A DNA stretch of 64,000 nt from Mesoterricola silvestris. Its GTDB lineage: Bacteria; Acidobacteriota; Holophagae; Holophagales; Holophagaceae. Shown one piece after another: positions 6,255 to 63,753 of the stretch; the first letter of the stretch is position 1; each line of letters begins with the position of its first letter. The DNA lies in the NCBI RefSeq assembly GCF_030295405.1, contig NZ_AP027080.1, positions 4,696,001 through 4,760,000 on the forward strand. The letters are read 5' to 3'. The notes under the pieces are model-generated. The model searched no databases. It worked only from the letters and a program-made list of their open reading frames with translations, and was not told the origin of the DNA. The translations under genes were made by a program, and so were the position numbers.

Positions 6255-6258
6255 GCCC

Positions 6259-6579: not shown

Positions 6580-6590
6580 GGTCGGCTCCA

Positions 6591-7079: not shown

Positions 7080-7087
7080 GGCGGGTC

Positions 7088-7651
7088 CTACAGCGAGGTC
7101 GGGTTACGGGGGATGGAGGGCGTGGGATCCTGGGTGATCCGGGCCTTGCCGTCCTTGTCCGCATAGGTGTTCATGAGGTCCCACTTGCCGAACTGCATGG
7201 AGAGCCGGTCGTAGGAAGCCTGCTCGTAGTCGCCCCGCAGCCAGATGGCGTCCTTGGGGCAGGCCTCCTCGCACATGCCGCAGTAGATGCACCGGAGCAT
7301 GTCGATGCGGAAGACCGCCGGGCGCTTCTCCTCGAAGCCCTGGGTCTTGTTCAGGTCCCCGAAGGCGTCGGCCTCGATGGTGATGCACCTCGCCGGGCAG
7401 GCCTCGGCGCACATGAAGCAGGCCACGCACTTGATGGACCCGTCCTCGAAGCGCTTGAGCTCGTGGAGGCCCCGGTACCCGGGGGCCACCTCCCGCTTCC
7501 ATTCGGGGTACTGCACCGTGAACCGCTTGCGGCTCCGGGTGAGGATCTGCTTGAGGAAGTGCTTCATGGTGATGGCCATGCCCTGGAGCACGGGGATCAC
7601 GTAGGTGCGGTCCACCCACGTGAGTTCGACTTTCTTGACGACGACTGCCAT
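7088..7651 (-). CDS. nuoI: NADH-quinone oxidoreductase subunit I (2x[4Fe-4S])
   Basis: Iron-sulfur subunit linking the peripheral arm of complex I to the quinone site; 187 residues. Two complete ferredoxin motifs are present: C75/C78/C81 with C85-P, and C121/C124/C127 with C131-P, ligating clusters N6a and N6b. Before them lies an amphipathic segment (MAITMKHFLKQILTRS). The ATG at 7651 follows the nuoH stop by 3 nt. This is the only peripheral-arm subunit encoded here; its partners NuoB, C, D and E-G are not in the window. Confidence 0.96.
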   Translation of the reverse strand: MAVVVKKVELTWVDRTYVIPVLQGMAITMKHFLKQILTRSRKRFTVQYPEWKREVAPGYRGLHELKRFEDGSIKCVACFMCAEACPARCITIEADAFGDLNKTQGFEEKRPAVFRIDMLRCIYCGMCEEACPKDAIWLRGDYEQASYDRLSMQFGKWDLMNTYADKDGKARITQDPTPSIPRNPTSL

Positions 7652-7654
7652 TGG

Positions 7655-8707
7655 TCAACCCCGCCGGTACATGAGGAACGCCTGGACCATGAGGTTGCCC
7701 AGGCTCAAGGGGAGCATCACCTTCCAGCCCATGAACATCAGCTGGTCGAACCGGAAGCGGGGCACGGTCCACCGGATCCAGATGAAGACCCAGCAGAAGA
7801 ACACCAGCTTGAGGACGAAGGCGGCGATGGAGAGGGTGACGGAGGGCGCGGCCACGAAGGGCACCTGCCAGCCGCCGAAGTAGAGCGTCACGATGAGGGC
7901 GGCGGCCGTGACGATGTGCACGTACTCCGAAAGCTGGAGCAGCGCGAACTTCATGGAGCCGTACTCGGTGTGGAAGCCCGCCACGATCTCGCTTTCGCCC
8001 TCGGCGAAGTCGAAGGGGAGGCGGTTGGTCTCGGCGAACATGCACACGAAGAACACCAGGAAGCCGAAGAACTGGGGGATGACGTTCCAGAGCACGGCCT
8101 GGTGGGCGATGATCTCGTGGGGGTCATAGCCGCCCGTGCGCAGGAAGATGGCCACCACCGCCAGGCTCATGGCCAGCTCGTAGCTCACCATCTGGGCCGA
8201 GGCCCGCATGCCGCCCAGGATCGACCACTTGTTGTTGCTGCTCCAGGCGGCGGTGAGGATGCCGTACACAGCCACCGACCCGATGGCCAGGGGGTAGAGC
8301 ATGCCCATGCCGTTGCCGGGCTCCAGGAGGCTCATGTGGTAGGTCTGGCCGCCCTGCACCAGGGACCGGCCGAAGGGGATGACCGCGAAGCCCATCATGG
8401 CCGGCACGAAGGCCAGGAAGGGGGCCAGCCAGAACAGGGCCTTGTTGGCGTCGGCGGTGACCAGGTCCTCCTTCAGGAAGAACTTGATGCCGTCCGCGGC
8501 CAGCTGGGGCAGGCCCAGCAGGCGCCAGCGCCCGAAGAGCAGGGCCCGGTTGGGCCCGATGCGGTCCTGGATCATGGCGCTGCCCCGGCGCTCCACCCAG
8601 GTGAGGAGGGCGGCCAGGGTGAGGGGACCCGCGAAGACGATGATCACCTTGGCGATCATCCAGAAGGTCTGGGGCTGGAGGTGCAGGAGTCGGGCTAGGA
8701 ATTCCAT
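7655..8707 (-). CDS. nuoH: NADH-quinone oxidoreductase subunit H
   Basis: Membrane subunit that forms most of the quinone-binding chamber of complex I; 350 residues with about eight helices. Conserved loops are present: ERRGSAMIQDRIGPNR, QLAADGIKFFLKED, and the acidic quinone-loop region FAETNRLPFDFAEGESEIV. It is the first gene of the minus-strand run nuoHIJKLMN and stands divergent from the NO reductase gene, so a promoter is expected between 8708 and about 8890. Normally nuoG or nuoD would precede nuoH; here neither does. Confidence 0.96.
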   Translation of the reverse strand: MEFLARLLHLQPQTFWMIAKVIIVFAGPLTLAALLTWVERRGSAMIQDRIGPNRALLFGRWRLLGLPQLAADGIKFFLKEDLVTADANKALFWLAPFLAFVPAMMGFAVIPFGRSLVQGGQTYHMSLLEPGNGMGMLYPLAIGSVAVYGILTAAWSSNNKWSILGGMRASAQMVSYELAMSLAVVAIFLRTGGYDPHEIIAHQAVLWNVIPQFFGFLVFFVCMFAETNRLPFDFAEGESEIVAGFHTEYGSMKFALLQLSEYVHIVTAAALIVTLYFGGWQVPFVAAPSVTLSIAAFVLKLVFFCWVFIWIRWTVPRFRFDQLMFMGWKVMLPLSLGNLMVQAFLMYRRG

Positions 8708-8832
8708 CGGGCAGCTTTCCGGCAGGCTTCCACAGGGAAGCCCGGCTCATCCAAATTACCAGGGGGATCACATAAGAACAAACGGCGTGGCTGTTAGCAT
8801 ACCGGGATCCGGGCGGGGAAAAAGAGGGTCCC

Positions 8833-8846
8833 TTGACGGGGATCAA
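8833..8846 (+). promoter_or_regulatory. FNR/DNR-type operator upstream of the NO reductase gene
   Basis: TTGACGGGGATCAA matches the FNR/DNR family consensus TTGAT-N4-ATCAA at nine of the ten fixed positions. Its centre lies 52 bp before the norB start codon. If the regulator binds at -41.5 as a class II activator, transcription would begin around 8881, giving a leader of about 11 nt that still contains the GGAGG ribosome-binding site at 8882-8886. Activation at low oxygen or by nitric oxide is inferred. Confidence 0.6.
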
Positions 8847-8891
8847 GGCGGGGGCCCGCCGGGTCCTCCAGGCTGGTCCCTGGAGGTAGTC

Positions 8892-11054
8892 ATGAAACAG
8901 CGTTGGCTGATTCTTCTTCTGGTGCTCATCGCCAGCTTCGGGGTCCTGGGGATCGGGGGGCGGCAGATCGCCCTCAACGCCCCGCCCATCCCCGCCAGCG
9001 TGGTGGGCCCCGATGGGCGCGAACTGGTGGGCGCCGGGCAGATCCTGGACGGCCAGAAGAGCTACCTGGGCCACGGCGGCCAGCACATCGGATCCATATG
9101 GGGCCACGGGGCCTACCTGGCCCCGGACTGGACGGCCAAGGCCCTGCACCGCTGGGCCGAGTTGACCCTCGCCCAGGCCAAGGCCTCCGGCCTCTCCGAC
9201 GCCGAGGCCCGGGCCCGCACCCAGGCCGCCTTCCAGTCCAACAGCTTCCAGGACGGCACCCTGACCCTGGACGCCCCCCGGGCCGCGGCCTACGCCGCCA
9301 CCCGGGAGGAGCTGGCCCGCACCGTCTTCGGGGGCGACAGGGACGCCGCCATCCCCGCCCGCTGGATCCCCTCCATGGAGGAGGGCGAACGCGTGGCCGA
9401 TTTCTTCCTGTGGACCGCCTGGACCGCCGCGGCCCGCAGGCCCGGCGAGGACGTGAGCTACACCCAGAACTGGCCCCAGGAATCCCTGGTGGGCAACCAG
9501 ATCACCCCCATCAGCCACCTGTGGAGCATCCTCTCCATCGTCCTGCTGATCCTGGGCGTGGGCCTCATGGTGTGGTTCCAGGCCTCCCAGAAGGAGGAGG
9601 CCTTCCCGGCCCCCCAGCCCATGACCCCCGAGCCGGCCACCCCCAGCCAGCGCTGGTCCGCCATCTACTTCGCCGTGGCCATGGCCCTCTTCATGGTCCA
9701 GATCCTCATGGGCGTGTTCACCGCCCACTACGCCGTGGAATCCAATTCCCTCTACGGCATCGACCTCAGCCGCATCCTGCCCTACGCGGCCACCCGCACC
9801 TGGCACCTGCAGCTCGCCGTGTTCTGGATCGCCACCTGCTGGCTGGCCACGGGCCTCTACCTGGGCCCCAAGCTCGCCGGCCGTGAACCCAAGGGCCAGT
9901 ACCTGGGCGTCGCCGGCCTCCTGGTGGCCCTCGTGGTGGTGGTGGTGGGCGCCCTCACCGGCAGCCAGCAGGCCATCCTGGGCCGCCTCAGCGGCTCGTT
10001 CATGCTGGGCCACCAGGGCTACGAGTACGTGGAACTGGGCCGCCTCTGGCAGATCCTCCTCACCGTGGGCATGGTGGGCTGGCTCGTGCTGGTGGTGCGG
10101 GCCATCCGCCCCGCCCTGGCCGCCGAGAAGGGCTCCCTGGGCCTCCTGAAGCTCTTCCTCCTGGCCGCCGTGGCCATCCCGCTCTTCTACTCCGCGGGCT
10201 TCATGTACAACCGCGAGACGCACCTGGCCCTGGCCGAGTACTGGCGCTGGTGGGTGGTGCACCTCTGGGTGGAAGGCTTCTTCGAGGTGTTCGCCACCGT
10301 GGCCATCGCCCTGCTCTCCACCCGCCTCGGCCTCCTGCGGGAGAAGACCGCCCTGCGCAGCGTGAACCTCAGCATGATCCTCTTCCTGGGCTCGGGCATC
10401 ATCGGCACCTTCCACCACCTGTACTTCTCGGGCTCCCCGGCCTTCATCTCCGCCCTGGGCTCCATGTTCAGCGCCCTGGAGATCGTGCCCCTGACCATCG
10501 TGGGCTTCGAACTGGCCCAGAGCCTGCGCGCGGGCCGCGCCCTGGGCAGCGGCTACGAGTGGCCCTTCAAGTTCTTCGCCGCGGTGTGCTTCTGGAACCT
10601 CATCGGCGCGGGCGTATTCGGCATGCTCATCAACCCCCCGTCCATCCTCTACTACGGCCAGGGCCTCAACACCACGCCCATCCACAGCCACGCCGCCCTC
10701 TTCGGGGTCTACGGCTTCCTCGCCATCGCCCTGATGCTCTTCGCGCTGCGCGGCATGACCCCCGACCGCGCCTGGGACGGCAAGCTGCTGAAGACCGGCT
10801 TCTGGGGCCTCAACCTGGGCCTGGTGCTCATGCTCGTCCTGAGCCTGATCCCCAGCGGCCTGAACCAGATCGTCCAGAGCCTCCAGCACGGCACCTGGTT
10901 CGCCCGGAGCGCCGCGGTGGTGCAGAGCCCCTTCATGCGGACCCTCACCTGGATGCGCTTCCCCGGCGACGTCCTCTTCGGCGTCGGCGCCCTGGCGGTG
11001 ACCGCGTTCACGATCAAGGCCGTCATCGCCGCCTGGAAGTGGCGCAAGGCCTAG
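8892..11054 (+). CDS. norB: Quinol-dependent nitric oxide reductase (qNor)
   Basis: Reduces two NO to N2O in the cytoplasmic membrane with electrons from quinol. The 720 residues comprise one N-terminal helix, a periplasmic domain of about 200 residues shaped like NorC but without any CxxCH haem motif, and the twelve-helix NorB core. Metal-site motifs are visible: WHLQLAVFW, VVHLWVEGFFEVFA (histidine and the FeB glutamate), TFHHLYFSG, and TTPIHSHAALFGVYG. The fused form takes electrons from quinol and needs no separate NorC. GGAGG at 8882-8886 precedes the ATG. The gene stands alone, divergent from nuoH, with an FNR-like box upstream and a hairpin terminator downstream. It is also called norZ. 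Confidence 0.96.
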   Translation: MKQRWLILLLVLIASFGVLGIGGRQIALNAPPIPASVVGPDGRELVGAGQILDGQKSYLGHGGQHIGSIWGHGAYLAPDWTAKALHRWAELTLAQAKASGLSDAEARARTQAAFQSNSFQDGTLTLDAPRAAAYAATREELARTVFGGDRDAAIPARWIPSMEEGERVADFFLWTAWTAAARRPGEDVSYTQNWPQESLVGNQITPISHLWSILSIVLLILGVGLMVWFQASQKEEAFPAPQPMTPEPATPSQRWSAIYFAVAMALFMVQILMGVFTAHYAVESNSLYGIDLSRILPYAATRTWHLQLAVFWIATCWLATGLYLGPKLAGREPKGQYLGVAGLLVALVVVVVGALTGSQQAILGRLSGSFMLGHQGYEYVELGRLWQILLTVGMVGWLVLVVRAIRPALAAEKGSLGLLKLFLLAAVAIPLFYSAGFMYNRETHLALAEYWRWWVVHLWVEGFFEVFATVAIALLSTRLGLLREKTALRSVNLSMILFLGSGIIGTFHHLYFSGSPAFISALGSMFSALEIVPLTIVGFELAQSLRAGRALGSGYEWPFKFFAAVCFWNLIGAGVFGMLINPPSILYYGQGLNTTPIHSHAALFGVYGFLAIALMLFALRGMTPDRAWDGKLLKTGFWGLNLGLVLMLVLSLIPSGLNQIVQSLQHGTWFARSAAVVQSPFMRTLTWMRFPGDVLFGVGALAVTAFTIKAVIAAWKWRKA

Positions 11055-11075
11055 GCGGATCCCATCGATGGGAAA

Positions 11076-11103
11076 AAAAGGGGGGGCGCAGGCCCCCCCT
11101 TTT
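11076..11103. terminator. Bidirectional rho-independent terminator
   Basis: A stem of eight G:C pairs (GGGGGGGC/GCCCCCCC) with the 4-nt loop GCAG is extended by AAAA before and TTTT after. It therefore has the A-tract and T-tract needed in both directions. It lies between the converging norB (+) and lipoprotein (-) genes. Confidence 0.9.
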
Positions 11104-11135
11104 CCGTGCCGGACGGAAAGGCCCGGCCTTCCCCT

Positions 11136-12101
11136 TCATTCCCGGCTTCCGTAGTAGGTCCAGGACCACAGCCGGATCGAGGTGCCCTCCACCGGCCCCC
11201 GCTGGTAGAGCCGCACCCAGCCCGCGGGCTGGGGGCTCCACTTCACCATCAGGGCCTGGTTGTCGGCGCTCTCCCCCAGGCCGGAGGCGTCCACCAGGTA
11301 GGTGGGGTAGCCGGGCTCGGGGAAGGCCACCTGGATCCAGTCGCCGCGGCGCTCCAGGGGGGAGACCACCACGTCGCGCACCTTGCGGGGGGTGCGCTGG
11401 ACGTCCAGGTCCTCCTGGCTGTGGGGGGGCGCGTTGCGGCCGGGGGCGAATTCCCGGGGGGCGGAGGTGCGCCAGAGGGCTTCGCCCACCATGCGCCCGT
11501 CGGGAAAGCCCGTGGGGGCGTAGGGGGCGTCGTCCCGGGGCTCGGTGCGCACGGCCTGGAGGGCCAGGCTGAGCATGAGGCGGTTGTGCAGGGTCCAGCC
11601 TTCGCGGCTGGTGCGCTCCTTCACGGAAAGGCGCGAATCGGCCAGGATGGCCTCCAGGTGGCCCTCCAGGGTCGTCACCCGGGCGCGGCTGGCGGCGAGG
11701 TCCACCCAGCCCCACCCCAGGGGCCCGCCCCACACCAGGGCGCGGCCCTTGTCCAGGGCGTAGACCGCGGGGTGCTCGCTGGGCTCGCCCGTGACCAGGG
11801 GGCCCGAGAGGCTGAGGCATTCCACGGCCATGACCTTCTCGGCCTTGGGGCCCTTGAACCAGTCCAGGACCTCCAGCCCCGGCAGGGAGCTCCCCCCCTG
11901 GCGTGCCTTGACCCAGTACACGGTGAATTCCTGCTGCCCCGTGCCGGGCCCCTCCAGGACGCCCAGGGCGCCCTCCTCCGGGGGTTGCCGGTCCAGGTTC
12001 AGCCAGGCGGTGACGGGCGGGGCGGCCTTCTTCCGGCGGCACCCCGTGCCGACGCCCAGCGCCACGACCATCCCTAGCATCAGTGCGACCCTGAGTTTCA
12101 T
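11136..12101 (-). CDS. Putative lipoprotein of unknown function
   Basis: 321 residues. The N-terminus is a lipoprotein-like signal sequence (MKLRVALMLGMVVALGVGTGC) with the candidate lipidated Cys at residue 21; the lipobox GTGC is not ideal. A basic RRKK follows. No catalytic motif is recognisable. The C-terminal 90 residues (from about VRDVVVSPLERRGDWIQVAF) have a beta-rich, SH3-like look, which is only suggestive. GGGAG lies 7 nt before the ATG at 12101. The gene is 56 bp downstream of glnS in the same direction and may be read with it. Confidence 0.65.
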   Translation of the reverse strand: MKLRVALMLGMVVALGVGTGCRRKKAAPPVTAWLNLDRQPPEEGALGVLEGPGTGQQEFTVYWVKARQGGSSLPGLEVLDWFKGPKAEKVMAVECLSLSGPLVTGEPSEHPAVYALDKGRALVWGGPLGWGWVDLAASRARVTTLEGHLEAILADSRLSVKERTSREGWTLHNRLMLSLALQAVRTEPRDDAPYAPTGFPDGRMVGEALWRTSAPREFAPGRNAPPHSQEDLDVQRTPRKVRDVVVSPLERRGDWIQVAFPEPGYPTYLVDASGLGESADNQALMVKWSPQPAGWVRLYQRGPVEGTSIRLWSWTYYGSRE

Positions 12102-12157
12102 GATGCTGCTCCCGTTGTCCCGTTGGAACGTGGCACCAGGATAGCGGAAACGGGGGC

Positions 12158-13864
12158 CTACTTGGCCTCGGCCTTCGCCCAGGAATCCTTGAGGCTCACG
12201 GTGCGGTTGAAGACCGGGGTCCCCTTCCCGCCGTCCGGATCGGCCACGAAGTAGCCCAGGCGCTCGAACTGGAAGGCCTCCCCGGGCCGGGCGGCGGCGA
12301 GGGAGGGCTCCACCCGGGCCGCGGGCAGCACCTCCATGCTTTCGGGGTTGAGGAAGTGGCGCCAGTCCTCGCCCTCGGGCACGTCCATGGGGTCCTTGGC
12401 CGTGAAGAGCCGGTCGTAGAGGCGCACTTCGCAGGCCAGGGCGTGGGCGGCGGAAACCCAGTGGAGGGTCCCCTTGACCTTCCGGCCGTCGGGGGCGTCC
12501 CCGCCCAGGGAGGCGGGGTCCCAGGTGCAGCGGAGCTCCGTGACCTCGCCCGCGGCGTCCTGCACCACGCCGGTGCAGCGCAGGAGGCAGGCGTTCTTCA
12601 GGCGCACCTCGGCGCCCGGGGCCAGGCGGAACCACTTCTTCGGGGCCTCGATCTGGAAATCCTCCCGCTCCACGTAGACTTCCCGGGTGAAGGGCACCTT
12701 GCGCCGGCCCAGGGCCTCGTTCTCGGGGTGGTTCGGCACGTCCAGCCAGTGCACCTCGCCCTCGGCCATGTTCTCGATGACCACCTTCAGGGGGCGCAGC
12801 ACGGCCATGGCCCGGGGGGCGCTTCCGGCCAGGTCCTCGCGCACGCAGTGCTCCAGGAGGCCCACGTCGGCCACCATGTCCCGCTTGGCCACGCCCACCT
12901 TCTCGGCGAAGGCGCGCACGCTGGCGGCGGTGTAGCCCCGGCGGCGCAGGCCGCTGATGGTGGGCATGCGGGGGTCGTCCCAGCCCTTGACGATGCCCTC
13001 CTTGACCAGTTCCAGGAGGCGGCGCTTGCTCATGACGGTGTAGGTGAGGTTGAGCCGGGCGAACTCGATCTGCCGGGGATGGGGGCGGGAGAAGAACTTA
13101 CCGTCCACGTCCTGCTGCAGGAACCAGTCGTAGAGGGGCCGGTGGTCCTCGAATTCCAGGGTGCAGATGGAGTGGGTGATGCGCTCGATGGCGTCCGAGA
13201 CCCCGTGGGCGAAGTCGTACATGGGGTAGATGAGCCAGGCGTCGCCGGTGCGGTGGTGGTGGGCGCGCTTGATGCGGTACATGAGCGGGTCCCGCATGTT
13301 CATGTTGGGGCTCTGCATGTCGATCTTCGCCCGCAGGGTCCTGGCGCCGTCGGGGAACTCCCCGGCGCGCATGCGCCGGAAGAGGTCCAGGTTCTCCTCG
13401 GGGCTCCGGTCCCGGTACGGGCTGTTCCGCCCGGCCTTGAAGAAGTTGCCCCGGTATTCCTTGATCTCCTCCTCGTTCAGGTCGCACACGTAGGCCATGC
13501 CCCGGCCGATGAGGTACTCCGCGTAGTCGTAGAGGAACGGGAAGTAGTCCGAGGCGTAGTGCTCCCCGGCCCAGTCGAAGCCCAGCCAGCGCACGTCGTC
13601 CCGGATGGAGTCCACGTACTCGATGTCCTCCTTGACGGGGTTCGTGTCGTCGAAGCGCAGGTTCGTACGGCCTCCGTACTTGGCGGCGAGGCCGAAATTG
13701 ATGCAGATCGACTTGGCGTGGCCGATGTGGAGGTAGCCGTTGGGCTCGGGGGGAAAGCGCGTGCAGATGCGGCCCTGGTGCTTCCCGGAGGACCCGTCGG
13801 CCTCCATGATCTCCTCGATGAAGTTGAGGCTGCGGGGTTCGGGGGCGGGGGTCTCGTTGGTCAT
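12158..13864 (-). CDS. glnS: Glutamine--tRNA ligase
   Basis: Attaches glutamine to tRNA-Gln in the cytoplasm; a class I synthetase of 568 residues, close to the E. coli length of 554. The HIGH motif is at residues 46-49 (GYLHIGHAKS), and the KMSKS counterpart is VMSKRRL near residue 275. The C-terminal two-barrel anticodon-binding region is complete. The start ATG lies one base after the gltX stop, so the two synthetases are probably one transcript. A dedicated GlnRS means this organism need not rely only on the indirect Glu-tRNA-Gln amidation route. Confidence 0.97.
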   Translation of the reverse strand: MTNETPAPEPRSLNFIEEIMEADGSSGKHQGRICTRFPPEPNGYLHIGHAKSICINFGLAAKYGGRTNLRFDDTNPVKEDIEYVDSIRDDVRWLGFDWAGEHYASDYFPFLYDYAEYLIGRGMAYVCDLNEEEIKEYRGNFFKAGRNSPYRDRSPEENLDLFRRMRAGEFPDGARTLRAKIDMQSPNMNMRDPLMYRIKRAHHHRTGDAWLIYPMYDFAHGVSDAIERITHSICTLEFEDHRPLYDWFLQQDVDGKFFSRPHPRQIEFARLNLTYTVMSKRRLLELVKEGIVKGWDDPRMPTISGLRRRGYTAASVRAFAEKVGVAKRDMVADVGLLEHCVREDLAGSAPRAMAVLRPLKVVIENMAEGEVHWLDVPNHPENEALGRRKVPFTREVYVEREDFQIEAPKKWFRLAPGAEVRLKNACLLRCTGVVQDAAGEVTELRCTWDPASLGGDAPDGRKVKGTLHWVSAAHALACEVRLYDRLFTAKDPMDVPEGEDWRHFLNPESMEVLPAARVEPSLAAARPGEAFQFERLGYFVADPDGGKGTPVFNRTVSLKDSWAKAEAK

Positions 13865-54990: not shown

Positions 54991-56436
54991 ATGGCACAAA
55001 GCGTTGAACTTACCAACCGATGGGATACCCGCCTCGCCGCGTGGGCGGACGAGGAGCACAGCGCCTCCAAGCGCTTCCTCATCAGCGCCGCCGTGTGGGC
55101 CCTGGTGGGAACCCTGTTCGGCTTGATCGCCGCCTCGGAATACTACTGGCCCGACCTGGTGCACAACCTCCCCCAGCTGCAGTTCGGGCGCCTGCGCCCC
55201 ACCCACGTGAACGTCGTGGCCTTCGGCTTCATCTCCATGGCCAACGTCGGCGCCATCTTCTACGTCATCCCCGAACTGTGCCGCACGCGCCTGTTCAGCG
55301 AGCGCTGGGGCAACGTGCTCATGGTGGCCTGGAACAGCGTCATCCTCCTGGGGATCCTCTGCCTCACCAACGGCATCACCGAGGGCCGGGAGTACGCCGA
55401 GCTGCCCTGGTTCCTGGACCTGGCCATGATGGCCGCCCTCATCCTCTACATCGTCCTGGTGTGGGGCACCGTCCTCAACCGCAAGGAGAAGCAGCTCTAC
55501 GTCTCCATCTGGTACATCGCCGGCACCACGCTGTGGTTCCCCGTGGTCTACCTCATCGGGAACCGCGTCTTCTTCGCCGTGCCCGGCATCGGCGACGCCA
55601 TCGCGAACTGGTTCTACGGCCACAACATCCTGGGCCTCTGGTTCACCACCAACGGCATCGGGCTGCTCTACTACTTCCTCCCCAAGATCACCCGGAACCC
55701 GCTCTACTCGCACCTCCTGTCCATCGTGGGCTTCAGCACCATCGCCATGTTCTACACCCCCACGGGCACCCACCACCTCCTGCAGAGCCCGGTGCCGGAA
55801 TGGCTCAAGGCCGTGGCCGTCATCTCCTCCGTGATGCTGCTGGTGCCGGTCATGAGCGTGCTGGTGAACTTCTTCCTGACCATGAAGGGCAAGTGGTCCA
55901 TGATGACCACCCACCTGCCCCTGCGGTTCTTCGTGACGGCCCTGGGCTTCTACTTCCTCACCTGCTTCACGGGCCCCTTCCAGGCCACCCGCTGGATCAA
56001 CTGGTACCTGCACTTCACCCACTGGGTGGTGGGCCACGCCCACTTCGCCCTGCTGGGCACCTTCGGGTTCGTGGGCTGGGGCGCCATCTACTACGTGGCG
56101 CCCCGGGTCTCGGGCCGGCAGTGGTACTCCCGCCGCCTGGCCAACGCGCACTACTGGCTCTCGCTCATCGGCACCGTCCTCATGATCGTGGCGCTGACCG
56201 TGGGCGGCCTCATCCAGGCCTCGGCCTGGGAGGAGGGGATCCCCGTCTACCGGGGCGTGATCATGGTGGCCCCCTTCATGCTGATGCGGGCCTTCTCCGG
56301 ACTGCTCATCGTGCTGGGCCAGGTGCTCTTCCTCTACAACGTGGTCAAGACTCTGGTGTTCGCGGAAGCGTCCCTGGAAGGGCCCCTGGAGGAACCCGCC
56401 GCCGTCCTTCCCCAGTCCGCCGCCGTGCGCAGCTAA
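54991..56436 (+). CDS. ccoN: cbb3-type cytochrome c oxidase subunit I
   Basis: Catalytic subunit of a high-affinity haem-copper oxidase; 481 residues, about 12 membrane helices. Ligand motifs: RPTHVNVVAFGF (low-spin haem His), WFYGHNILGLWFTTNGIG with the CuB histidine and a downstream Tyr-containing helix, TGTHHLLQSPVP (His pair), and HFTHWVVGHAHFALLG (haem b and b3 ligands). GGAG lies 8 nt before the ATG. First gene of a long operon that runs to ccoS. Confidence 0.95.
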   Translation: MAQSVELTNRWDTRLAAWADEEHSASKRFLISAAVWALVGTLFGLIAASEYYWPDLVHNLPQLQFGRLRPTHVNVVAFGFISMANVGAIFYVIPELCRTRLFSERWGNVLMVAWNSVILLGILCLTNGITEGREYAELPWFLDLAMMAALILYIVLVWGTVLNRKEKQLYVSIWYIAGTTLWFPVVYLIGNRVFFAVPGIGDAIANWFYGHNILGLWFTTNGIGLLYYFLPKITRNPLYSHLLSIVGFSTIAMFYTPTGTHHLLQSPVPEWLKAVAVISSVMLLVPVMSVLVNFFLTMKGKWSMMTTHLPLRFFVTALGFYFLTCFTGPFQATRWINWYLHFTHWVVGHAHFALLGTFGFVGWGAIYYVAPRVSGRQWYSRRLANAHYWLSLIGTVLMIVALTVGGLIQASAWEEGIPVYRGVIMVAPFMLMRAFSGLLIVLGQVLFLYNVVKTLVFAEASLEGPLEEPAAVLPQSAAVRS

Positions 56437-56446
56437 GAGGAGCTCC

Positions 56447-57658
56447 ATGACCACCCAGCGAGCCAACTACCTCTACCCCGCCCTCGGGCTCACCCTCATC
56501 ATGGCCTCCATCATCTTCGTGGTGGTCCTGGTGCCCCGGTGGACCTTCAAGCCCCCCGAACCCCGGGACCTGCGGGACTACACCACCCAGGAGCTGCGGG
56601 GCCGGGAGATCTACAAGCGCGAGGGCTGCTGGTACTGCCACTCCATGGTGAGCCGGCCCCAGGACTGGGACCACGGCCGCCGCTCCAAGTCCTCGGACTA
56701 CTTCTACGACGCCTACCACCTCCTGGGCTCCGAGCGCACCGGTCCGGACCTCGCCAACATCGGCGGCAAGTTCCCGGACCAGTACCACATGCTCCACCAC
56801 AAGAACCCGCGCTACGTGAAGCCCGGGTCCATCATGCCCCGGTACGACTACCTCACCGAGCAGGAGCTCACGGACCTCACCGCCTTCCTCCAGAGCCTCG
56901 GCCCCTACGGCACCCGCGCCCTGGACGTGAAGGACGGCAAGGCGAAGTACGCGGCCAACGGCGAGACGAAGTGGGCCAAGGTGCGCGACTACACCTGGGT
57001 GGGCGGCGAGCTCAACGGGCTCACCGAGAAGGTGGCCATGTGGAAGCTGGACGTGGCCCAGCAGCGGGCCCTCAACGAGGAGCTGTACGGCGAGCACCTG
57101 GAGGTGCCCTTCAAGTACACCGCGGAGATCGAGGAGCTGATGTACGGCTCCAGCCACGAGGCCGCCAACGCCAAGGGCGCCCTCCAGGGGCTGGCCACCC
57201 CGGCCTTCCCCAACAAGGAGGCCCTGGAGGAGGCCCGGAACGCGGATCCCGACGTGCGGGCCTGGAAGGAGAACAGCTTCAAGGAGGGCGAGATCACCGA
57301 CAAGAACCGCCTCCTGGCCAACTACGGCAAGGGCCTGTTCAACAACCAGTGCTCCCCCTGCCACGGCGTGGCCGGCAACGGCAAGGGCCAGGCCGCCTTC
57401 ACCATGACCAAGCGCCCCGCCAATTTCGACGAGGACAAGTTCGCCACCTACACCACCGACACCTGGTACTGGCGCATCAGCCGCGGCGTGCCCGGCACCC
57501 AGATGCCGCGGTGGGAGTACACCCTGGACGCGAACCAGCGGCTCACCCTCACCGCCTTCCTCAAGTACGTCGCCCAGAACAAGGGCCTGGGCAAGCTCCA
57601 GGGCGCGGAGAGCAACTACGAGAAGGCTCCCGTCCCCGCCGCCGCCCCGGCCAAGTGA
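56447..57658 (+). CDS. ccoO: cbb3 oxidase subunit II fused to an extra cytochrome c domain
   Basis: 403 residues, about twice the usual CcoO. One N-terminal membrane helix (about 10-30) is followed by the CcoO haem c domain with C61-W-Y-C-H65 and the axial Met in PGSIMPRYDYL. A linker of about 100 residues leads to a second cytochrome c domain with C302-S-P-C-H306 and Met in GTQMPRWEY. The second domain may replace one haem of the missing CcoP. It starts 10 bp after ccoN with GAGGAG as ribosome-binding site. Confidence 0.92.
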   Translation: MTTQRANYLYPALGLTLIMASIIFVVVLVPRWTFKPPEPRDLRDYTTQELRGREIYKREGCWYCHSMVSRPQDWDHGRRSKSSDYFYDAYHLLGSERTGPDLANIGGKFPDQYHMLHHKNPRYVKPGSIMPRYDYLTEQELTDLTAFLQSLGPYGTRALDVKDGKAKYAANGETKWAKVRDYTWVGGELNGLTEKVAMWKLDVAQQRALNEELYGEHLEVPFKYTAEIEELMYGSSHEAANAKGALQGLATPAFPNKEALEEARNADPDVRAWKENSFKEGEITDKNRLLANYGKGLFNNQCSPCHGVAGNGKGQAAFTMTKRPANFDEDKFATYTTDTWYWRISRGVPGTQMPRWEYTLDANQRLTLTAFLKYVAQNKGLGKLQGAESNYEKAPVPAAAPAK

Positions 57659-57839: not shown

Positions 57840-57848
57840 GAGCGGTTG

Positions 57849-58817
57849 ATGCGCAAATCCCTCCTCCTCCTGCCCCTGCTCCTCCTGGCCTGCGCCGACA
57901 AGGGCCTCTCCACCCGCCGCGGCGCGGGCGGGGAGGTGGTCCTGTCGGCCTCCGCGGCGCCCGCGGGCCTGGAGCCCGGGGCCGAGACCCCCTACCCCCT
58001 GGGCCTGCCCTCCGCCCTCAAGGGCCGGGCCACGTACACCGCCAACTGCGCCTCCTGCCACGGCACCCTCCTCACCGCCGCCGAGGCCGCCGAGATCAAG
58101 AAGCAGGCCGCCCTGCCCCCCACCCACGCCGACTACGGCGCCAAGGTGCGGGAACTGGCCGCCGAAGGGCGCTGGCCCGTGATGCCCCCCAAGGTCGGGC
58201 CCGACTTCACCAGCCGCGCCTGGCGCTTCCAGCGCACCCCCAGCCAGCTGTACCGCCTCATCGCCTTCGGCCGGGCCCCGAGGCTGGAAGGGGATCCCGC
58301 CAAGGGCTTCTACGCCCACCCCGGCCCCTCGGGAAAGCCGGGCGAAGGCTGGATGCACGCCATCAAGGACCTGCGCGGGGACCAGCTGGTGGCCACCGGG
58401 GATCCGGTGCCCGTGTGGAACGCCGTCTACTACGTGTGGAGCCGCGCCATCGCCGCGGCCAGCCCCACCCAGTTCAAGGACGTGTGGGACATGTACGGCC
58501 AGAACTGCTCGGTGTGCCATGGGGACACCGCCCAGGGCAACGGCCCCCTGGCCCGCACCCTGAACCCGCCCCCCTTCGATTTCTCCAACCGCAAGGCCCT
58601 GGCCCAGAGCACCGACGCCTTCCTCTTCTGGCGCATCTCGGAAGGCGGCCAGTTCAAGACCATCCCCCTCTCGGTGCGGGAGTCCATGACGCCCGAATCG
58701 CTCCAGCAGTTCGTCCACCAGTGGTCCGCCATGCCCAGCTGGCGGGGGGTCCTCACCGAGGACCAGCGCTGGATGCTGGTGGACGGCGTCCGCAGCCGCA
58801 CGTATGAGCACGAATAG
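57849..58817 (+). CDS. Dihaem c-type cytochrome lipoprotein
   Basis: 322 residues. Lipoprotein signal peptide with lipobox LLAC (Cys 15). Two haem sites: C67-A-S-C-H71 and C220-S-V-C-H224, each in its own cytochrome c domain. It is anchored to a membrane from the periplasmic side and could carry electrons from the Rieske/cytochrome b part to the oxidase, as cytochrome c1 or CcoP do elsewhere. GGAG lies 6 nt before the ATG at 57849. It sits between the oxidase genes and the Rieske gene. Confidence 0.9.
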   Translation: MRKSLLLLPLLLLACADKGLSTRRGAGGEVVLSASAAPAGLEPGAETPYPLGLPSALKGRATYTANCASCHGTLLTAAEAAEIKKQAALPPTHADYGAKVRELAAEGRWPVMPPKVGPDFTSRAWRFQRTPSQLYRLIAFGRAPRLEGDPAKGFYAHPGPSGKPGEGWMHAIKDLRGDQLVATGDPVPVWNAVYYVWSRAIAAASPTQFKDVWDMYGQNCSVCHGDTAQGNGPLARTLNPPPFDFSNRKALAQSTDAFLFWRISEGGQFKTIPLSVRESMTPESLQQFVHQWSAMPSWRGVLTEDQRWMLVDGVRSRTYEHE

Positions 58818-58826
58818 GAGAGTGTG

Positions 58827-59462
58827 ATGAAGGAGAACCAGCGCCGGCTCTTCCTGAAGGCCATCACGAGCATCCCCATCCTGGGGGGCGCCGTGCTGGC
58901 CGCCAGCGCCCTGATCCGGTACTTCAAGCCCACCACCGTCGGGGGCGTCAAGGGCCTCGTGGCCCCCCCCGACGAGGCCGGCAGCAGCATCCAGGTCGTG
59001 GCCGCCCTGAGCGAACTCACCCAGCCCTGGGACTTCAAGGAGTTCATCTACATCCGCAAATCCGTGGAGTATTCCAGCCGCAAGATCCAGGGCGCCAAGA
59101 TCCCCGGCTTCGTGGTGCGCATGCCGGACGAATTCACGGACCCCAAGGATCCCAAATCCAAGTTCGTGGTGGTCCAGCGCATCTGCCCCCACCTGGGCTG
59201 CACCTTCAATTTCGTGAAGAGCCCCGAGGAGCTGGCCGGCGGCTACAACTACAAGCCCCCCGCGCCCACCCACCCCTACTTCGCCTGTCCCTGCCACCTG
59301 TCGGTGTACGACCCCACCCGCAAGACCGACGTGGCCCTCCAGGGCCCCCTGCCCGGCAAGGTGGTGTCGGGCCCGGCCCCCCGTCCACCCCGCACCATGT
59401 CCTTCGACATCAAGGACGGACAGATCCTGATCACCGGCACGGAAGGAGGCGGCGTTGGTTAA
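58827..59462 (+). CDS. Rieske [2Fe-2S] protein with Tat-type signal anchor
   Basis: 211 residues. The N-terminus has QRRLFLKA, a twin-arginine motif, then a membrane helix, so it is exported folded and stays anchored. Cluster motifs: C120-P-H122-L-G-C125 and C154-P-C156-H157-L-S. The loop between the two motifs is about 28 residues long. It oxidises quinol at the Qo site of the next gene's product. AGGAG lies 6 nt before the ATG. The last 8 nt overlap the cytochrome b gene. Confidence 0.93.
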   Translation: MKENQRRLFLKAITSIPILGGAVLAASALIRYFKPTTVGGVKGLVAPPDEAGSSIQVVAALSELTQPWDFKEFIYIRKSVEYSSRKIQGAKIPGFVVRMPDEFTDPKDPKSKFVVVQRICPHLGCTFNFVKSPEELAGGYNYKPPAPTHPYFACPCHLSVYDPTRKTDVALQGPLPGKVVSGPAPRPPRTMSFDIKDGQILITGTEGGGVG

Positions 59463-61029
59463 GGCCATTCCCTATCTCATCCAGGGCCTCCTGCACGCGC
59501 CCGGCACCTTCCGGAAGTGGTTCCAGGAGCGGTGGGCCAAGATGCAGCTCTTCGACGAGGGCCGCACGGACCAGGCCCGGACCAACCCCTGGTACACCCT
59601 CGGCGGCATGTGGTACTGGGTCTGGATGCTGGTGATCTTCAGCGGCGTGGTGCTGATGATCTACTACGTGCCCGTCACGGACCAGGCCTACCACTCCATC
59701 GAGCGCATCCAGCACAACTGGCGCTGGGGCCCCGTGCCCATCGGCTCCCTGGTGCGCGGCCTCCACAAGTACGGGGCCGACGCCTTCATCATCCTGGCCA
59801 CCATGCGGGTCTACCGCATGTGGTTCACGGGCGAATACAAGCAGGGCAACGAGTTCACCTTCATCATCGCCCTGCTGCTGCTGATCATCGGCATGTATTC
59901 CGGCCTCACGGGCTACCTCCTCATCTGGAACCAGCGCGCCCTGTGGGCCACCAAGGTCATGGCCACCTTCCCCACCTACCTGGACCAGAACCCCAGCTGG
60001 CTCCCCGGCGGCAACCTCATCAACTGGACCAACCAGGGCAAGACCACCGCGCAGATCCTCCTGGGCGGCACCAGCATCGGGCCCGCCACGGTGACCCGGT
60101 TCTACGCCTTCCACTTCATGCTCAGCTTCATCCCCATGATCTTTTTCGAGCTGCGGGTGTACCGCCTGGGCTTCAAGCGCATGAACATCAGCAACTGGTC
60201 CAAGCTGGCGGTGTTCGCCATCATCCTGGCCATCGCCGTCATGATCCCCGCGGCCCAGGGCAGCCCGGCCAACCCCGAGGTGACCCCCAACCCCATCCTG
60301 TCGGACTGGTACTTCCTGGCCATGTATCACTTCCTGAAGCTCCAGGACCCCTACCTGGCCACAGTTCTCACCGTGGCCATCCCCTTCCTGGTGCTGACGT
60401 CCATGTTCCTGGACCGCCGGCCCGAGCGGGAATGGGGCAAGCGCCAGATCTTCAACTGGATCGGCATCGGCGGCCTCATCTACTTCGTGGTCTTCAGCTT
60501 CCTCATCCTCAACGGCATCGCCGACCTGCACCGGGACGCGCCGCTGTGGTACTTCTCCATGGGCGGCTTCCTCCTGGCGGGCTACATCCAGGACTGGGCC
60601 TACGTCATGCGGCGGGACCAGAAGCGGTGGTGGGAGACCTTCCACCTCTTCTTCGTGGCCTTCATCCTCGTGTGCATGTCCGCCAACACCCTCTACCACT
60701 ACTTCGGCGATATCCGGGAGTGGAACGTGCTGGGCCGGGCCCAGATGCCCGATGTCCTGGCCCGGCTCCAGAAGGCCAACCCCCTGGCCACCCCCGACAT
60801 GGCCTTCGAGTGGCTGGAGAAGAACCGGCCCGGCCTGAACCTCTGGCTCACCAGCCACAAGGGGCCCAACAAGCCCGCGGGCATGGAGCTCTGGCTGGTG
60901 CACGTGATCGCCTGGCTGGGCATCCTCGCCTCGGGCACCGTCATCGGCCTGGGCAGGTGGGGGCGCCGCAAGAAGGCCGAAGCGCTGGCGGCGCTGGCCA
61001 AGGCCAAGCCCCGGGCGGCGGGGGCCTGA
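59455..61029 (+). CDS. Cytochrome b of a Rieske/cytochrome b complex, lacking the haem bH histidines
   Basis: 524 residues; fused cytochrome b type with about eight or more membrane helices and a longer C-terminus. Helix B has His in GLHKYGAD, but the residue 14 positions later, normally His, is Arg (TMRVYR). Helix D has FHFML, and again position +14 is Arg (ELRVYR). The bL ligand pair is thus kept and the bH pair is lost. The Qo-site motif is SDWY in place of PEWY. The start is TTG 59455, with GGAGG 5 nt upstream, overlapping the Rieske stop. A normal Q cycle through haem bH seems impossible. Confidence 0.9.
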   Translation: MVKAIPYLIQGLLHAPGTFRKWFQERWAKMQLFDEGRTDQARTNPWYTLGGMWYWVWMLVIFSGVVLMIYYVPVTDQAYHSIERIQHNWRWGPVPIGSLVRGLHKYGADAFIILATMRVYRMWFTGEYKQGNEFTFIIALLLLIIGMYSGLTGYLLIWNQRALWATKVMATFPTYLDQNPSWLPGGNLINWTNQGKTTAQILLGGTSIGPATVTRFYAFHFMLSFIPMIFFELRVYRLGFKRMNISNWSKLAVFAIILAIAVMIPAAQGSPANPEVTPNPILSDWYFLAMYHFLKLQDPYLATVLTVAIPFLVLTSMFLDRRPEREWGKRQIFNWIGIGGLIYFVVFSFLILNGIADLHRDAPLWYFSMGGFLLAGYIQDWAYVMRRDQKRWWETFHLFFVAFILVCMSANTLYHYFGDIREWNVLGRAQMPDVLARLQKANPLATPDMAFEWLEKNRPGLNLWLTSHKGPNKPAGMELWLVHVIAWLGILASGTVIGLGRWGRRKKAEALAALAKAKPRAAGA

Positions 61030-61030
61030 C

Positions 61031-61321
61031 ATGTATTCCCTCCGGCAGATCCAGGCCTGCAAGTGGACCGGAGCGGTCCTGGCCGTGGGCGTGCTCAGCG
61101 CCACCTTCGGCCGCTGGAACGCCTTCAGGGCGGCCCCGGCCCCGGGCACCTATGCCGGCATCCTGGGGGCCCTCACGGGCTTCCTGCTCCTCATGACCTC
61201 CCTGGCCGTGGTGGTCTACGCGGAAGAGAAGGCCAAAGGGCGCATCACCCGCCCCCGGCCCCTCCTCGATCGCATCGCCGACCGCCTTTTCCTGAAACGC
61301 GACGAACATGACCAAGGTTGA
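61031..61321 (+). CDS. Small two-helix membrane protein of unknown function
   Basis: 96 residues with two hydrophobic helices (about 13-28 and 43-63) and a basic C-terminal tail (KAKGRITRPRPLLDRIADR). It starts 1 bp after the cytochrome b stop. No metal-binding motif. Probably an accessory subunit of the cytochrome b complex. Confidence 0.7.
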   Translation: MYSLRQIQACKWTGAVLAVGVLSATFGRWNAFRAAPAPGTYAGILGALTGFLLLMTSLAVVVYAEEKAKGRITRPRPLLDRIADRLFLKRDEHDQG

Positions 61322-61325
61322 GCCC

Positions 61326-61592
61326 ATGCGCAAGCGACCCATCTTCGGTGTGATCTTCCTGCTGACCGGCCTCGGCATCTTCGGCTACTTCATCCTGCAC
61401 AGCGTGCTCACGGAAGTGGGCCCGCCCCCCGGGGTGCCGGTGCCCGCGCCGCTGCGCATGGAGACCACCAACAAGGAACCCTTCCGCGAATTCGACGTGG
61501 TCAAGTGGCTGGGCTGGGCCTTCGTGGTGGCGGCCCTGGCCGAAGTGGGCGCCGCCTACCTGGCCAAGCAGCGCACCACCCTGGACCAGTAG
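61326..61592 (+). CDS. Small membrane protein of unknown function
   Basis: 88 residues with an N-terminal helix (FGVIFLLTGLGIFGYFIL), a Pro-rich periplasmic-looking loop (GPPPGVPVPAP) and a second helix (WLGWAFVVAALAEVGAAYLA). The ATG at 61326 has AAGG about 8 nt upstream; an in-frame ATG at 61308 overlaps the previous gene and has none. It lies 8 bp before the cytochrome b-ferredoxin gene and is probably an accessory subunit. Confidence 0.7.
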   Translation: MRKRPIFGVIFLLTGLGIFGYFILHSVLTEVGPPPGVPVPAPLRMETTNKEPFREFDVVKWLGWAFVVAALAEVGAAYLAKQRTTLDQ

Positions 61593-61600
61593 GGGACGAC

Positions 61601-62833
61601 ATGTACCGCAAATTCCTGCGCCTCACCAAGAGCCTCACCGTCAGCTTCGAGAAGCTGGTCAACTTCGTCACCACCCAGGAGCACAACCCCCTGTACTTCC
61701 ACGGGGCCCTCCCCCTCTACACGTTCTGGTTCCTCATCTTCTCGGGCATCCTGCTGTGGATGTACTACATCCCCACCCTGGACCGGGCCTGGTCCAGCGT
61801 GAACTACATCTCGGCCCTGCCCACCCCGGGCGACCCCATCAACCTGGCCGCGGGCATCCCCTACGGCGCCGTGGTGCGGGGCATCCACCGCTGGGGGGCG
61901 GCGGCCATGATGATCGTCACCCTGCTGCACATGTTCCGGGTCTACTTCACCGACCGCCACCGGGCCTGGCGCTGGCTGCCCTGGGTCACGGGGGTGGGCC
62001 TGCTGGTCTTCGTGCTCTTCGTGGGCCTCAGCGGCTACCTCCTGGTGTGGGACGCCCGGGCCTACTACATCGTGGTGGCCACCCAGCACCTCTTCGACGG
62101 CGTGCCCGTCATCGGCGCGGCCCTCTCCAGCTTCCTGGTGGGCGGCGAGGGCATCACGGACTACACCCTCACCCGCTTCCTCTTCTTCCACGTGGGCGGG
62201 GCCGTGGCGATCTTCTTCCTGGTGTGGATGCACTTCATCCGCCTCAAGGAGCCCGTGGTCACCCCCAGCCGGGCCACCAACTTCCTGCTGCTGGGCTTCA
62301 TCCTCCTGGCCGCGGGCACCCTGCCCGCCATCAACATCACCCACGAGCTCCTGGCCAAGTACGGCCACGACCCCCGCATCGCCGCCCAGGCCGCCTACAT
62401 CGCCAGCGACGCCCCGGCCCAGATCGGCACCCTGGTGGAGACCATCCGCTACGACGCCTGGTACATGTTCCCCTACTGGCTCATCCAGAACGTGGGCACC
62501 ACCTGGACCTGGCTGATCCTGGGCGGCTCCACGCTCCTGCTCTGCGTGGCGCCCTTCTATCCCAAGGACCGCCGGGCCAACATCGCCGAGGTCGTCGAAG
62601 CGAAATGCACGGGCTGCACCTTCTGCAGCCTGGATTGCCCCTTCGAGGCCATCACCATGGTGGACCGGGCCCCGGGCAGCAAGTTCAAGCAGATCGCCGT
62701 CGTGCAGGCGGCCCGGTGCAGCGAGTGCGGCATCTGCGTGGGGGCCTGCCCCTTCCAGGCCATCGAGCTGCCCGAACTGCACTCCAAGACCCTGGAGGCC
62801 GATCTCCTGGCCCTCGTGAAGAAGGGAGCCTGA
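61601..62833 (+). CDS. Cytochrome b fused to a 2x[4Fe-4S] ferredoxin domain
   Basis: 410 residues. The membrane part (to about 320) keeps all four haem histidines: IHRWGAAAMMIVTLLH in helix B and FHVGGAVAIFFLVWMH in helix D, each pair 14 apart. Two or three further helices follow. The C-terminal 80 residues form a bacterial ferredoxin domain with two full motifs, C-x2-C-x2-C-x3-CP twice (KCTGCTFCSLDCP; RCSECGICVGACP), on the cytoplasmic side by inference. It could move electrons between quinol or haem b and soluble low-potential carriers. AGGGGA precedes the ATG. It abuts the MvhD-like gene. Confidence 0.92.
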   Translation: MYRKFLRLTKSLTVSFEKLVNFVTTQEHNPLYFHGALPLYTFWFLIFSGILLWMYYIPTLDRAWSSVNYISALPTPGDPINLAAGIPYGAVVRGIHRWGAAAMMIVTLLHMFRVYFTDRHRAWRWLPWVTGVGLLVFVLFVGLSGYLLVWDARAYYIVVATQHLFDGVPVIGAALSSFLVGGEGITDYTLTRFLFFHVGGAVAIFFLVWMHFIRLKEPVVTPSRATNFLLLGFILLAAGTLPAINITHELLAKYGHDPRIAAQAAYIASDAPAQIGTLVETIRYDAWYMFPYWLIQNVGTTWTWLILGGSTLLLCVAPFYPKDRRANIAEVVEAKCTGCTFCSLDCPFEAITMVDRAPGSKFKQIAVVQAARCSECGICVGACPFQAIELPELHSKTLEADLLALVKKGA

Positions 62834-63238
62834 ATGTCCGACCCCAAACGCACCGTCATCGGTTTCGTCTGCGAGCGCAGCCTTCCGGTGGAACGCATGC
62901 TGGACGAGCACAAGACCCTCCTGGACGACCCGGACACCAAGTTCGTCGTGGTGCCCTGCTCCGGGATGGTCAAGCCCACCCTCCTGGAGGCGGCCCTGGC
63001 CAACGGCGCCGACGCCACCTTCGTGTGCGGCTGCGCCATCGGCGACTGCCACTACCGCACCGGCAACCTCATGATCCGCGAGCGCCTGGAAGGCAAGCGT
63101 AACCCCAAGCTCCGCAAGACCACCGACCGCCGCAAGGTGGGCATGTTCTTCGTGACCATGAAGGACCGGGTGGCCTTCCTGGAGGCCCTGGCCGCCTTCA
63201 AGGCCGGCCTGGACGCCCCACCCGCGCAGGAGGACTAG
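62834..63238 (+). CDS. MvhD-like iron-sulfur protein
   Basis: 134 residues, family of the delta subunit of F420-non-reducing hydrogenase (MvhD), a [2Fe-2S] electron-transfer protein that in methanogens links hydrogenase to heterodisulfide reductase. The hallmark VPCSGMVKP and FVCGCAIGDCHYRTGN cysteines are present. There is no hydrogenase or Hdr gene nearby; instead it starts directly after the cytochrome b-ferredoxin fusion, so it probably relays electrons for that protein. Soluble, cytoplasmic. Confidence 0.88.
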   Translation: MSDPKRTVIGFVCERSLPVERMLDEHKTLLDDPDTKFVVVPCSGMVKPTLLEAALANGADATFVCGCAIGDCHYRTGNLMIRERLEGKRNPKLRKTTDRRKVGMFFVTMKDRVAFLEALAAFKAGLDAPPAQED

Positions 63239-63239
63239 C

Positions 63240-63374
63240 ATGGCCACCCCCGCCAAGAAGGCCGAGAATCCGACCAAGGACTACGTCGTGATGCTCCGCT
63301 ACCTCCTCTTCTACCTGTTCTTTTTCGGATTGCTCTACCTCGTCGCCCTCTTCGGCGAAGTGGCCGAGAAGTGA
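63240..63374 (+). CDS. Tiny single-helix membrane protein
   Basis: 44 residues: a short basic/acidic N-terminus and one helix (LRYLLFYLFFFGLLYLVAL) rich in aromatic residues. It starts 1 bp after the MvhD-like gene. Unknown; perhaps a structural subunit like the small single-helix subunits of bc1, b6f and cbb3 complexes. Confidence 0.65.
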   Translation: MATPAKKAENPTKDYVVMLRYLLFYLFFFGLLYLVALFGEVAEK

Positions 63375-63567: not shown

Positions 63568-63753
63568 ATGGACCATCCCAACTGGACCCTCATCATCGTC
63601 TTCACCGCCGTGGGCCTCGCCTTCGCCGCGGGCTTCGTCCTCTTCGCCCTGTGGGCCATCCGCGACGGCCAGTTCAAGGACGTCGAAGGGGTGAAGTTCC
63701 GCATGCTCGAGGACTTCAATCCCAAGAAGGGCCGGCGGGAGGTCAAAGACTGA
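63568..63753 (+). CDS. ccoS: cbb3-type oxidase assembly protein CcoS
   Basis: 61 residues: one N-terminal helix, then the family motif FALWAIRDGQFKDVEG with the conserved WA..GQF..LE-like pattern and RMLED. CcoS helps insert haem or copper into the cbb3 oxidase. Its presence at the end of the operon supports an oxidase assembled from these genes. ccoG, ccoH and ccoI are not seen before the window ends. Confidence 0.85.
   Translation: MDHPNWTLIIVFTAVGLAFAAGFVLFALWAIRDGQFKDVEGVKFRMLEDFNPKKGRREVKD

Follow-up and report, generated by a model that had tools for sequence, protein, structure and literature searches.

Loss of both haem bH ligands from a cytochrome b of Mesoterricola silvestris, beside a complementary second cytochrome b, suggests a bipartite complex III with a new electron exit

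Rieske/cytochrome b complexes are homodimers of one cytochrome b, in which each subunit carries two b haems. The window analysed here, a stretch of 64,000 nucleotides of the M. silvestris genome (contig NZ_AP027080.1, positions 4,696,001 to 4,760,000), encodes a cytochrome b (designated A) whose sequence argues against two b haems in this particular member. An earlier note on this DNA had claimed that both histidine ligands of haem bH are replaced by arginine in A, while those of haem bL are present. The locus raises the question of whether one haem, and only that haem, has been lost, and, if so, by which route the electrons of haem bL leave the enzyme.

The ORF of A (524 aa) has a TTG start codon and overlaps the end of the Rieske gene, including its stop codon, by 8 nt. 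The predicted protein matches the Pfam families PF00033 (Cytochrome_B; E = 1.5e-20) and PF00032 (Cytochrom_B_C; E = 1.9e-07), and a profile search revealed its homology to cytochrome b6 of the solved structure 1VF5 (E = 1e-32). The ligand positions were assigned by a HMMER alignment with this b6, in which H104 of A pairs with H86, R118 with H100, H220 with H187, and R234 with H202. Based on this pairing, both bL ligands are retained and both bH ligands are replaced by Arg, as the earlier note had proposed. The CGG codons that it reported were also correct, but its coordinates were not: 59803-59805 is the ATG codon of Met117, 3 bases early, and 60163-60165 is the CGC codon of Arg237, 9 bases late (the true codons are included in Table 1). 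No other histidine takes over the bH ligand positions, there being none at +14/+15 in helix D and none near +14 in helix B. The whole protein was also scanned for alternative His ligands, and H104 and H220 proved to be its sole histidines that are invariant among 17 homologs.

The same note had described the Qo motif of A as altered to SDWY. This is the case, and the motif, which differs from the canonical PEWY by Asp in place of Glu and Ser in place of Pro, is invariant in all 17 homologs. Since the acidic residue is kept and the motif does not vary, SDWY reads, at the level of sequence, as a putative working variant of the Qo site.

The distribution of A was sampled, together with that of its partner B (see below), in two phyla. 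A protein search with A produced matches in Holophagaceae and in one genome of the Vampirovibrionales. Full-length A was found in 7 of 396 Acidobacteriota genomes, all of them from the family of the window itself. The phylum Cyanobacteriota (in GTDB terms), to which the Vampirovibrionales genome belongs, contributed 5 positive genomes out of 292; the weaker matches in both phylum samples are other cytochromes b. The set of 17 homologs used throughout this analysis is comprised of 12 Holophagaceae (Acidobacteriota) and 5 members of the phylum Cyanobacteriota, one of which is the representative of the Vampirovibrionales.

The bH histidines are absent from both positions in every one of these 17 proteins. 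Position 118 is occupied by R or K in all of them, and position 234 by R in the Holophagaceae and by Y in the five members from the phylum Cyanobacteriota. With respect to the conservation of the Arg pair, which the earlier note had proposed to check, it is the loss of the histidines that is conserved and not the arginine itself. The bH pair is kept by all of the approximately 40 cytochromes b (those with a readable helix D) taken from the same phyla for comparison, a contrast that lies beyond chance. Glu232, located two residues before the lost helix D ligand, is invariant in the A homologs, while its equivalent in 40 comparison cytochromes b is A, L, V, S, M, G or T, and never an acidic residue. 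Because the bH histidines are missing from all 17 homologs, Glu232 and SDWY are invariant, and the comparison sequences keep their bH ligands, we conclude from the alignments that the loss of haem bH is a fixed character of A. Judged by its ligands, it is a one-haem cytochrome b, which departs from the standard members of the bc1 and b6f complexes. Arg/Lys118 and Glu232, which may form a salt bridge, probably occupy the old bH cavity as a charge pair that is predicted to be buried. It had been argued previously that the loss of haem bH alone reflects selection and not decay. The conservation of this trait in two phyla, the invariant Glu232, and the intact bL side and Rieske partner all support that view.

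The gene of A is part of a cassette, whose gene order (ccoN-ccoO-cytochrome c-Rieske-A-B-FlpD) is identical in all complete loci of both phyla. The genes from that of the Rieske protein through that of FlpD overlap or almost abut. A summary of the predicted features of the cassette, including their position and the evidence used for their assignment, is presented in Table 1.

Table 1. Predicted genes of the A/B cassette and functional residues of proteins A and B (positions within the 64,000-nucleotide window)
Feature	Position	Strand	Evidence or conservation
CcoN-like haem-copper oxygen reductase subunit I, first cassette gene	54991..56436	+	Pfam COX1, E = 2e-87
CcoO-like fusion protein with an additional c-haem domain, two CxxCH	56447..57658	+	FixO, E = 1.5e-32; Cytochrom_C
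Di-haem cytochrome c, two CxxCH	57846..58817	+	Cytochrome_CBB3/Cytochrom_C
Rieske iron-sulphur protein, CPHLGC ... CPCHLS	58824..59462	+	Pfam Rieske, just above cut-off; TIGR01416, E = 7e-11
Cytochrome b (A), predicted bL-only, Qo motif SDWY	59455..61029	+	Pfam, alignment, homologs
His104 of A, helix B haem bL ligand	59764..59766	+	b6 H86; 17/17
Arg118 (CGG) of A, helix B bH ligand position	59806..59808	+	b6 H100; R/K in 17/17
His220 of A, helix D haem bL ligand	60112..60114	+	b6 H187; 17/17
Glu232 of A, acidic, two residues before lost bH ligand	60148..60150	+	17/17
Arg234 (CGG) of A, helix D bH ligand position	60154..60156	+	aligned to b6 H202
Qo motif SDWY of A	60301..60312	+	17/17 homologs
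Small membrane protein between A and B	61031..61321	+	conserved in Holophagaceae by position and sequence
Second small membrane protein between A and B	61308..61592	+	conserved in Holophagaceae
Cytochrome b (B), helices A-F and 2x[4Fe-4S] domain	61601..62833	+	Pfam Cytochrome_B, E = 9e-27; Fer4
His96 of B, bL ligand	61886..61888	+	invariant in 17
His110 of B, bH ligand	61928..61930	+	invariant in 17
His197 of B, bL ligand	62189..62191	+	invariant in 17
His211 of B, bH ligand	62231..62233	+	invariant in 17
Former Qo motif of B, DAWY, catalytic Glu gone	62453..62464	+	
First 4Fe-4S motif of B (C336, C339, C342, C346)	62606..62638	+	invariant in 17
Second 4Fe-4S motif of B (C373, C376, C379, C383)	62717..62749	+	invariant in 17
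FlpD/MvhD-family protein	62834..63238	+	Pfam FlpD (PF02662), E = 4e-18
Single-helix small membrane peptide	63240..63374	+	read from frames
CcoS-like small protein (oxidase assembly), cassette end	63568..63753	+	by resemblance only

The CcoN-like protein is a member of the COX1 family according to Pfam, despite its low score against the ccoN model TIGR00780 (E = 5e-91, 306 bits versus a curated cut-off of 583). Since this score lies far under the curated cbb3 cut-off, the linked oxygen reductase may itself be of an unusual type. The di-haem cytochrome c is a candidate acceptor of the Rieske protein. The ligand Cys and His residues of the latter are invariant in 14 homologs, and the protein, with both of its ligand boxes conserved, is encoded together with cytochrome b, as is typical of a Rieske/cytochrome b pair; a single Rieske gene serves both cytochromes b of the cassette. 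The two small membrane proteins (61031-61592) gave no Pfam match. A peptide similar to the single-helix one also follows flpD in distant loci, as judged by eye.

The cassette encodes no donor enzyme, no HdrA, and no FAD/NAD(P) oxidoreductase subunit, which distinguishes it from the NAD(P)-linked complexes of anammox bacteria; FlpD stands alone. The region 3′ of FlpD was also inspected for a soluble acceptor, and only small oxidase-type peptides are encoded there. A haem ci site was sought in both cytochromes b, and the Cys is lacking, as Thr48 of A and Phe33 of B align with Cys35 of b6.

Two further loci of the same genome contain related genes. One of them (L040, G000:C1:480000-495000, positions 5415-13547) is a second Rieske/cytochrome b cassette, encoding a Rieske protein, a four-His cytochrome b, a multihaem cytochrome c, COX1 and FixO. 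Behind these genes lies one for a GltD-like FAD/NAD(P) oxidoreductase that contains 4Fe-4S domains, and the layout resembles that of the anammox NAD(P)-linked complexes. The other (L105, G000:C1, approximately 4440 kb) carries a separate FlpD gene, located behind that of an HdrA-like protein and beside those of other 4Fe-4S proteins.

The partner gene B and the FlpD gene were absent from the account given in the earlier note, and the missing half of the function of A is probably encoded here, three genes downstream. Protein B is also a homolog of b6 (E = 2e-24) and possesses all four haem-ligating histidines, but it lacks the acidic residue of the PEWY motif. The place of this motif is occupied by DAWY or DVWY in the Holophagaceae and by unrelated residues in the other five genomes, and the Qo acid is missing from all 17 B homologs. 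All eight Cys residues of the two C-terminal 4Fe-4S motifs are invariant in the same 17 proteins. The FlpD gene begins on the base directly after B. Its product clearly belongs to the PF02662 family (65.9 bits versus a Pfam cut-off of 22.3), and C13, C42, C67 and C72 are invariant. As the two-haem rule fails in A, and the Qo acid is missing from B, we have filed this pair, on the basis of the residues concerned, not among the standard members of Rieske/cytochrome b complexes but as a variant of that complex.

A further invariant residue of B, His34 (61700-61702), is situated near the cytoplasmic end of helix A, adjoining the site at which b6 has its haem ci Cys. In models of the anammox complexes a His on each cytochrome b holds an extra haem at the homodimer interface. 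His34 recalls this interface His and, by analogy, would favour a B/B dimer.

With respect to the exit of electrons from haem bL of A, it had been proposed that they must follow another route, or that the enzyme performs a simpler, non-Q-cycle chemistry. The need for another route holds in outline. The simpler chemistry is not required, because B, with its four histidines and 4Fe-4S motifs, and FlpD would provide an obvious exit that is always encoded beside A.

The pairing of A and B is strict among the sampled genomes. Within the phylum Cyanobacteriota, B was detected at high identity in exactly the 5 of 292 genomes that carry A, and those Holophagaceae with one of the two proteins also carry the other. 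In the apparent exception, G015 (B alone), the contig stops where A would start. The two genes are still adjacent in two very small genomes of Holophagaceae, G012 and G020 (approximately 1.2 Mb, 96-97% complete), and the whole cassette is present in L006, on the same contig as in G012. Their maintenance in such small genomes points to an important role.

We also compared sequence identity across the two phyla by region, with the sides of the membrane assigned from the topology homologous to that of b6, and applied a permutation test. The Qo side of A is better conserved (65% identity) than its cytoplasmic side (42%; p = 0.0008), while the reverse is true of B (31% versus 43%; p = 0.05). The difference is greatest in the Qo-forming ef loop, with 63% identity in A versus 13% in B. 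These opposite patterns indicate that A is kept for quinol oxidation, and B for some role on the cytoplasmic side.

In both phylogenetic trees, whose root is arbitrary, A and B together are set apart from all other sampled cytochromes b (SH-aLRT 94 in a tree that included one mis-trimmed row; 97/89 in the other). They may be sister duplicates that originated by duplication within the cassette, but this relationship is not secure, as both lie on long branches, which may attract each other. AlphaFold2 models based on the 17-row alignments (mean pLDDT of 51 for A and 57 for B) were of insufficient quality to place haems or to search for similar folds.

The loss of haem bH from A beside a complementary B suggests a bipartite complex III with a new electron exit. 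In such an enzyme quinol would be oxidised at the Qo site of A, beside the Rieske protein and haem bL. One electron would pass from the Rieske protein to the di-haem cytochrome c and on to the cbb3-like oxidase. The other would reach bL of A, pass over to bL of B in the second half of the dimer, continue through bH of B to the 4Fe-4S clusters, which by homologous topology should lie on the cytoplasmic side facing FlpD, and be delivered by FlpD to a low-potential cytoplasmic acceptor. In sum, the enzyme would perform an electron bifurcation based on quinone and powered by the reduction of oxygen.

Several observations favour such a heterodimer: (i) the bH histidines are gone from all 17 A proteins, all 17 B proteins have four His, and the Qo acid is found only in A, (ii) A and B co-occur in synteny, show complementary conservation, and share one Rieske gene, and (iii) there are precedents for bL-to-bL transfer in bc1 mutants (PMC4330944) and for a cytoplasmic exit, proposed for the anammox complexes (PMC12954380). 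The natural acceptor of FlpD is not encoded in the operon, which counts against regarding the direction of flow as settled. We hold it to be evenly balanced whether A and B together form a single Rieske/cytochrome b complex from two dissimilar halves, i.e. a natural heterodimer with a cytoplasmic electron exit. The fuller model, an obligate A/B heterodimeric complex III in which each low-potential electron would pass from bL to bL and exit via the 4Fe-4S clusters and FlpD at the expense of oxygen, is proposed tentatively, as falling a little short of that balance.

Other interpretations must be weighed against this heterodimer. That A is a decaying gene or the product of a sequence error can practically be dismissed, given its presence at 17 loci in two phyla, with intact frames and a strongly conserved Qo side. 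It is also highly improbable that A retains haem bH through unusual ligands (Lys or Arg together with Arg or Tyr), resulting in two haems with shifted potentials. Although a single His-to-Lys change at bH still permits haem binding in the bc1 complex of R. capsulatus (PMC4807273), and Lys118 is present in some A homologs and Tyr234 in five, both histidines are gone in every member, and A of the window has Arg twice. Moreover, the residue types at these positions vary (R/K and R/Y), while the nearby Glu232 is invariant.

We find it rather doubtful that the operon specifies two complexes, in which A and the Rieske protein would constitute a non-bifurcating quinol:cytochrome c reductase, and B and FlpD an independent, quinone-linked cytoplasmic oxidoreductase. 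Haem bL would then shuttle electrons within or between A subunits, and both quinol electrons would finally reach the Rieske protein. This arrangement is consistent with the location of the small membrane protein genes between A and B, and with the invariant His34, which could serve a B/B dimer. Cytochromes b with iron-sulphur partners are also able to function alone, e.g. in the Hdr-type and Qmo-type enzymes. However, two separate complexes would reduce the strict co-occurrence of A and B, the complementary loss of the Qo acid and bH ligands, and the complementary conservation to mere coincidences, and a simple reductase has little reason to retain haem bL and a fully conserved Qo side. Finally, the heterodimer may be real but its cytoplasmic arm reversed or mixed, which we consider unlikely. 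FlpD and the 4Fe-4S clusters would feed electrons of a cytoplasmic donor into bH of B and, together with electrons from A, reduce quinone at a Qi-type site in B, amounting to a cyclic or ferredoxin:quinone pathway. Sequence does not reveal in which direction electrons flow, the other FlpD gene of this genome adjoins one for an HdrA-like protein, and such a scheme would retain the conventional Q-cycle output at bH of B. Against it stand the missing haem ci Cys of b6f (position 35) in both proteins and the lack of any donor enzyme in the cassette.

Whether bL-to-bL transfer occurs in complex III dimers of living cells is a matter of debate, and it has been studied with engineered heterodimers. 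If the proposed A/B heterodimer is correct, a natural complex that is able to work only via the bL-bL route would settle that cells can use this route and that selection favours it. Such a complex would further illustrate how, after duplication, one cytochrome b can come to serve for input and the other for output, and how a low-potential reductant could be generated from quinol oxidation plus oxygen. Some aerobic relatives of Cyanobacteria may have such a cassette as their "complex III"; genes of this type are annotated there as b6f and have been used in arguments on the origin of respiration.

A close precedent for A and B is provided by the cross-inactivated bc1 complexes of Rhodobacter (PMC4330944), fused heterodimers in which one cytochrome b carries the G158W change and its partner H212N. 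In these dimers of a Qo-knockout and a bH-knockout (H212N) half, electrons are transferred from bL to bL on a catalytically relevant timescale (PMC4330944). Judged by sequence, the distribution of functions is the same, with A corresponding to the half that has a Qo site and no bH, and B to that with bH and no Qo site, and in the mutants only the bL-bL bridge links the halves. Those enzymes are laboratory constructs, whereas the A/B split is natural, occurs in two phyla, and involves two diverged genes; in addition, the half that retains bH, B, is extended by a 2x[4Fe-4S] tail and accompanied by FlpD. We found no published natural cytochrome b lacking haem bH, nor any two-cytochrome-b complex, in a search that covered part of the published literature, including a limited share of that on Rieske/cytochrome b evolution.

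In comparison with the b6f and bc1 complexes, A shares the fold family, bL ligands, Qo loop and Rieske partner, and B the four haem ligands. They differ in that A has no bH, B has no Qo site and bears an FeS tail, the haem ci Cys is missing, and a di-haem cytochrome c replaces cytochrome f or c1.

Aerobic Melainabacteria have been described as possessing a "Complex III/IV combination", in which petB and petC, annotated as b6f subunits, adjoin a type C oxygen reductase (PMC6349859, in the portion of that account considered here). Like the A/B cassette, and in the same group of bacteria, it combines Rieske and b6-like genes with those of a cbb3-type oxidase, and, by its description in that portion, it is very likely the A/B cassette or a close relative. 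Neither the absence of bH ligands nor a second cytochrome b nor FlpD is mentioned in the same portion of the account (PMC6349859).

The FlpD of the cassette resembles the FlpD/MvhD proteins of HdrA-linked hydrogenases in its PF02662 domain and conserved Cys residues, and is distinguished from them by being encoded behind a membrane cytochrome b, without HdrA. A cytoplasmic module of a comparable kind is found in the anammox Rieske/cytochrome b complexes Kuste4569-4574 and Kustd1480-1485, whose FeS/NAD(P) subunit has been proposed to take up low-potential electrons (PMC12954380). These complexes contain one b6-like cytochrome b with both haems and haem cN, subunit IV, and a FAD/NAD(P) subunit (PMC12954380). 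The A/B cassette likewise pairs a Rieske protein and cytochrome b with a cytoplasmic iron-sulphur module, but it encodes two cytochromes b, one of them without bH, lacks the haem ci Cys, and has FlpD where those complexes have the NAD(P) subunit.
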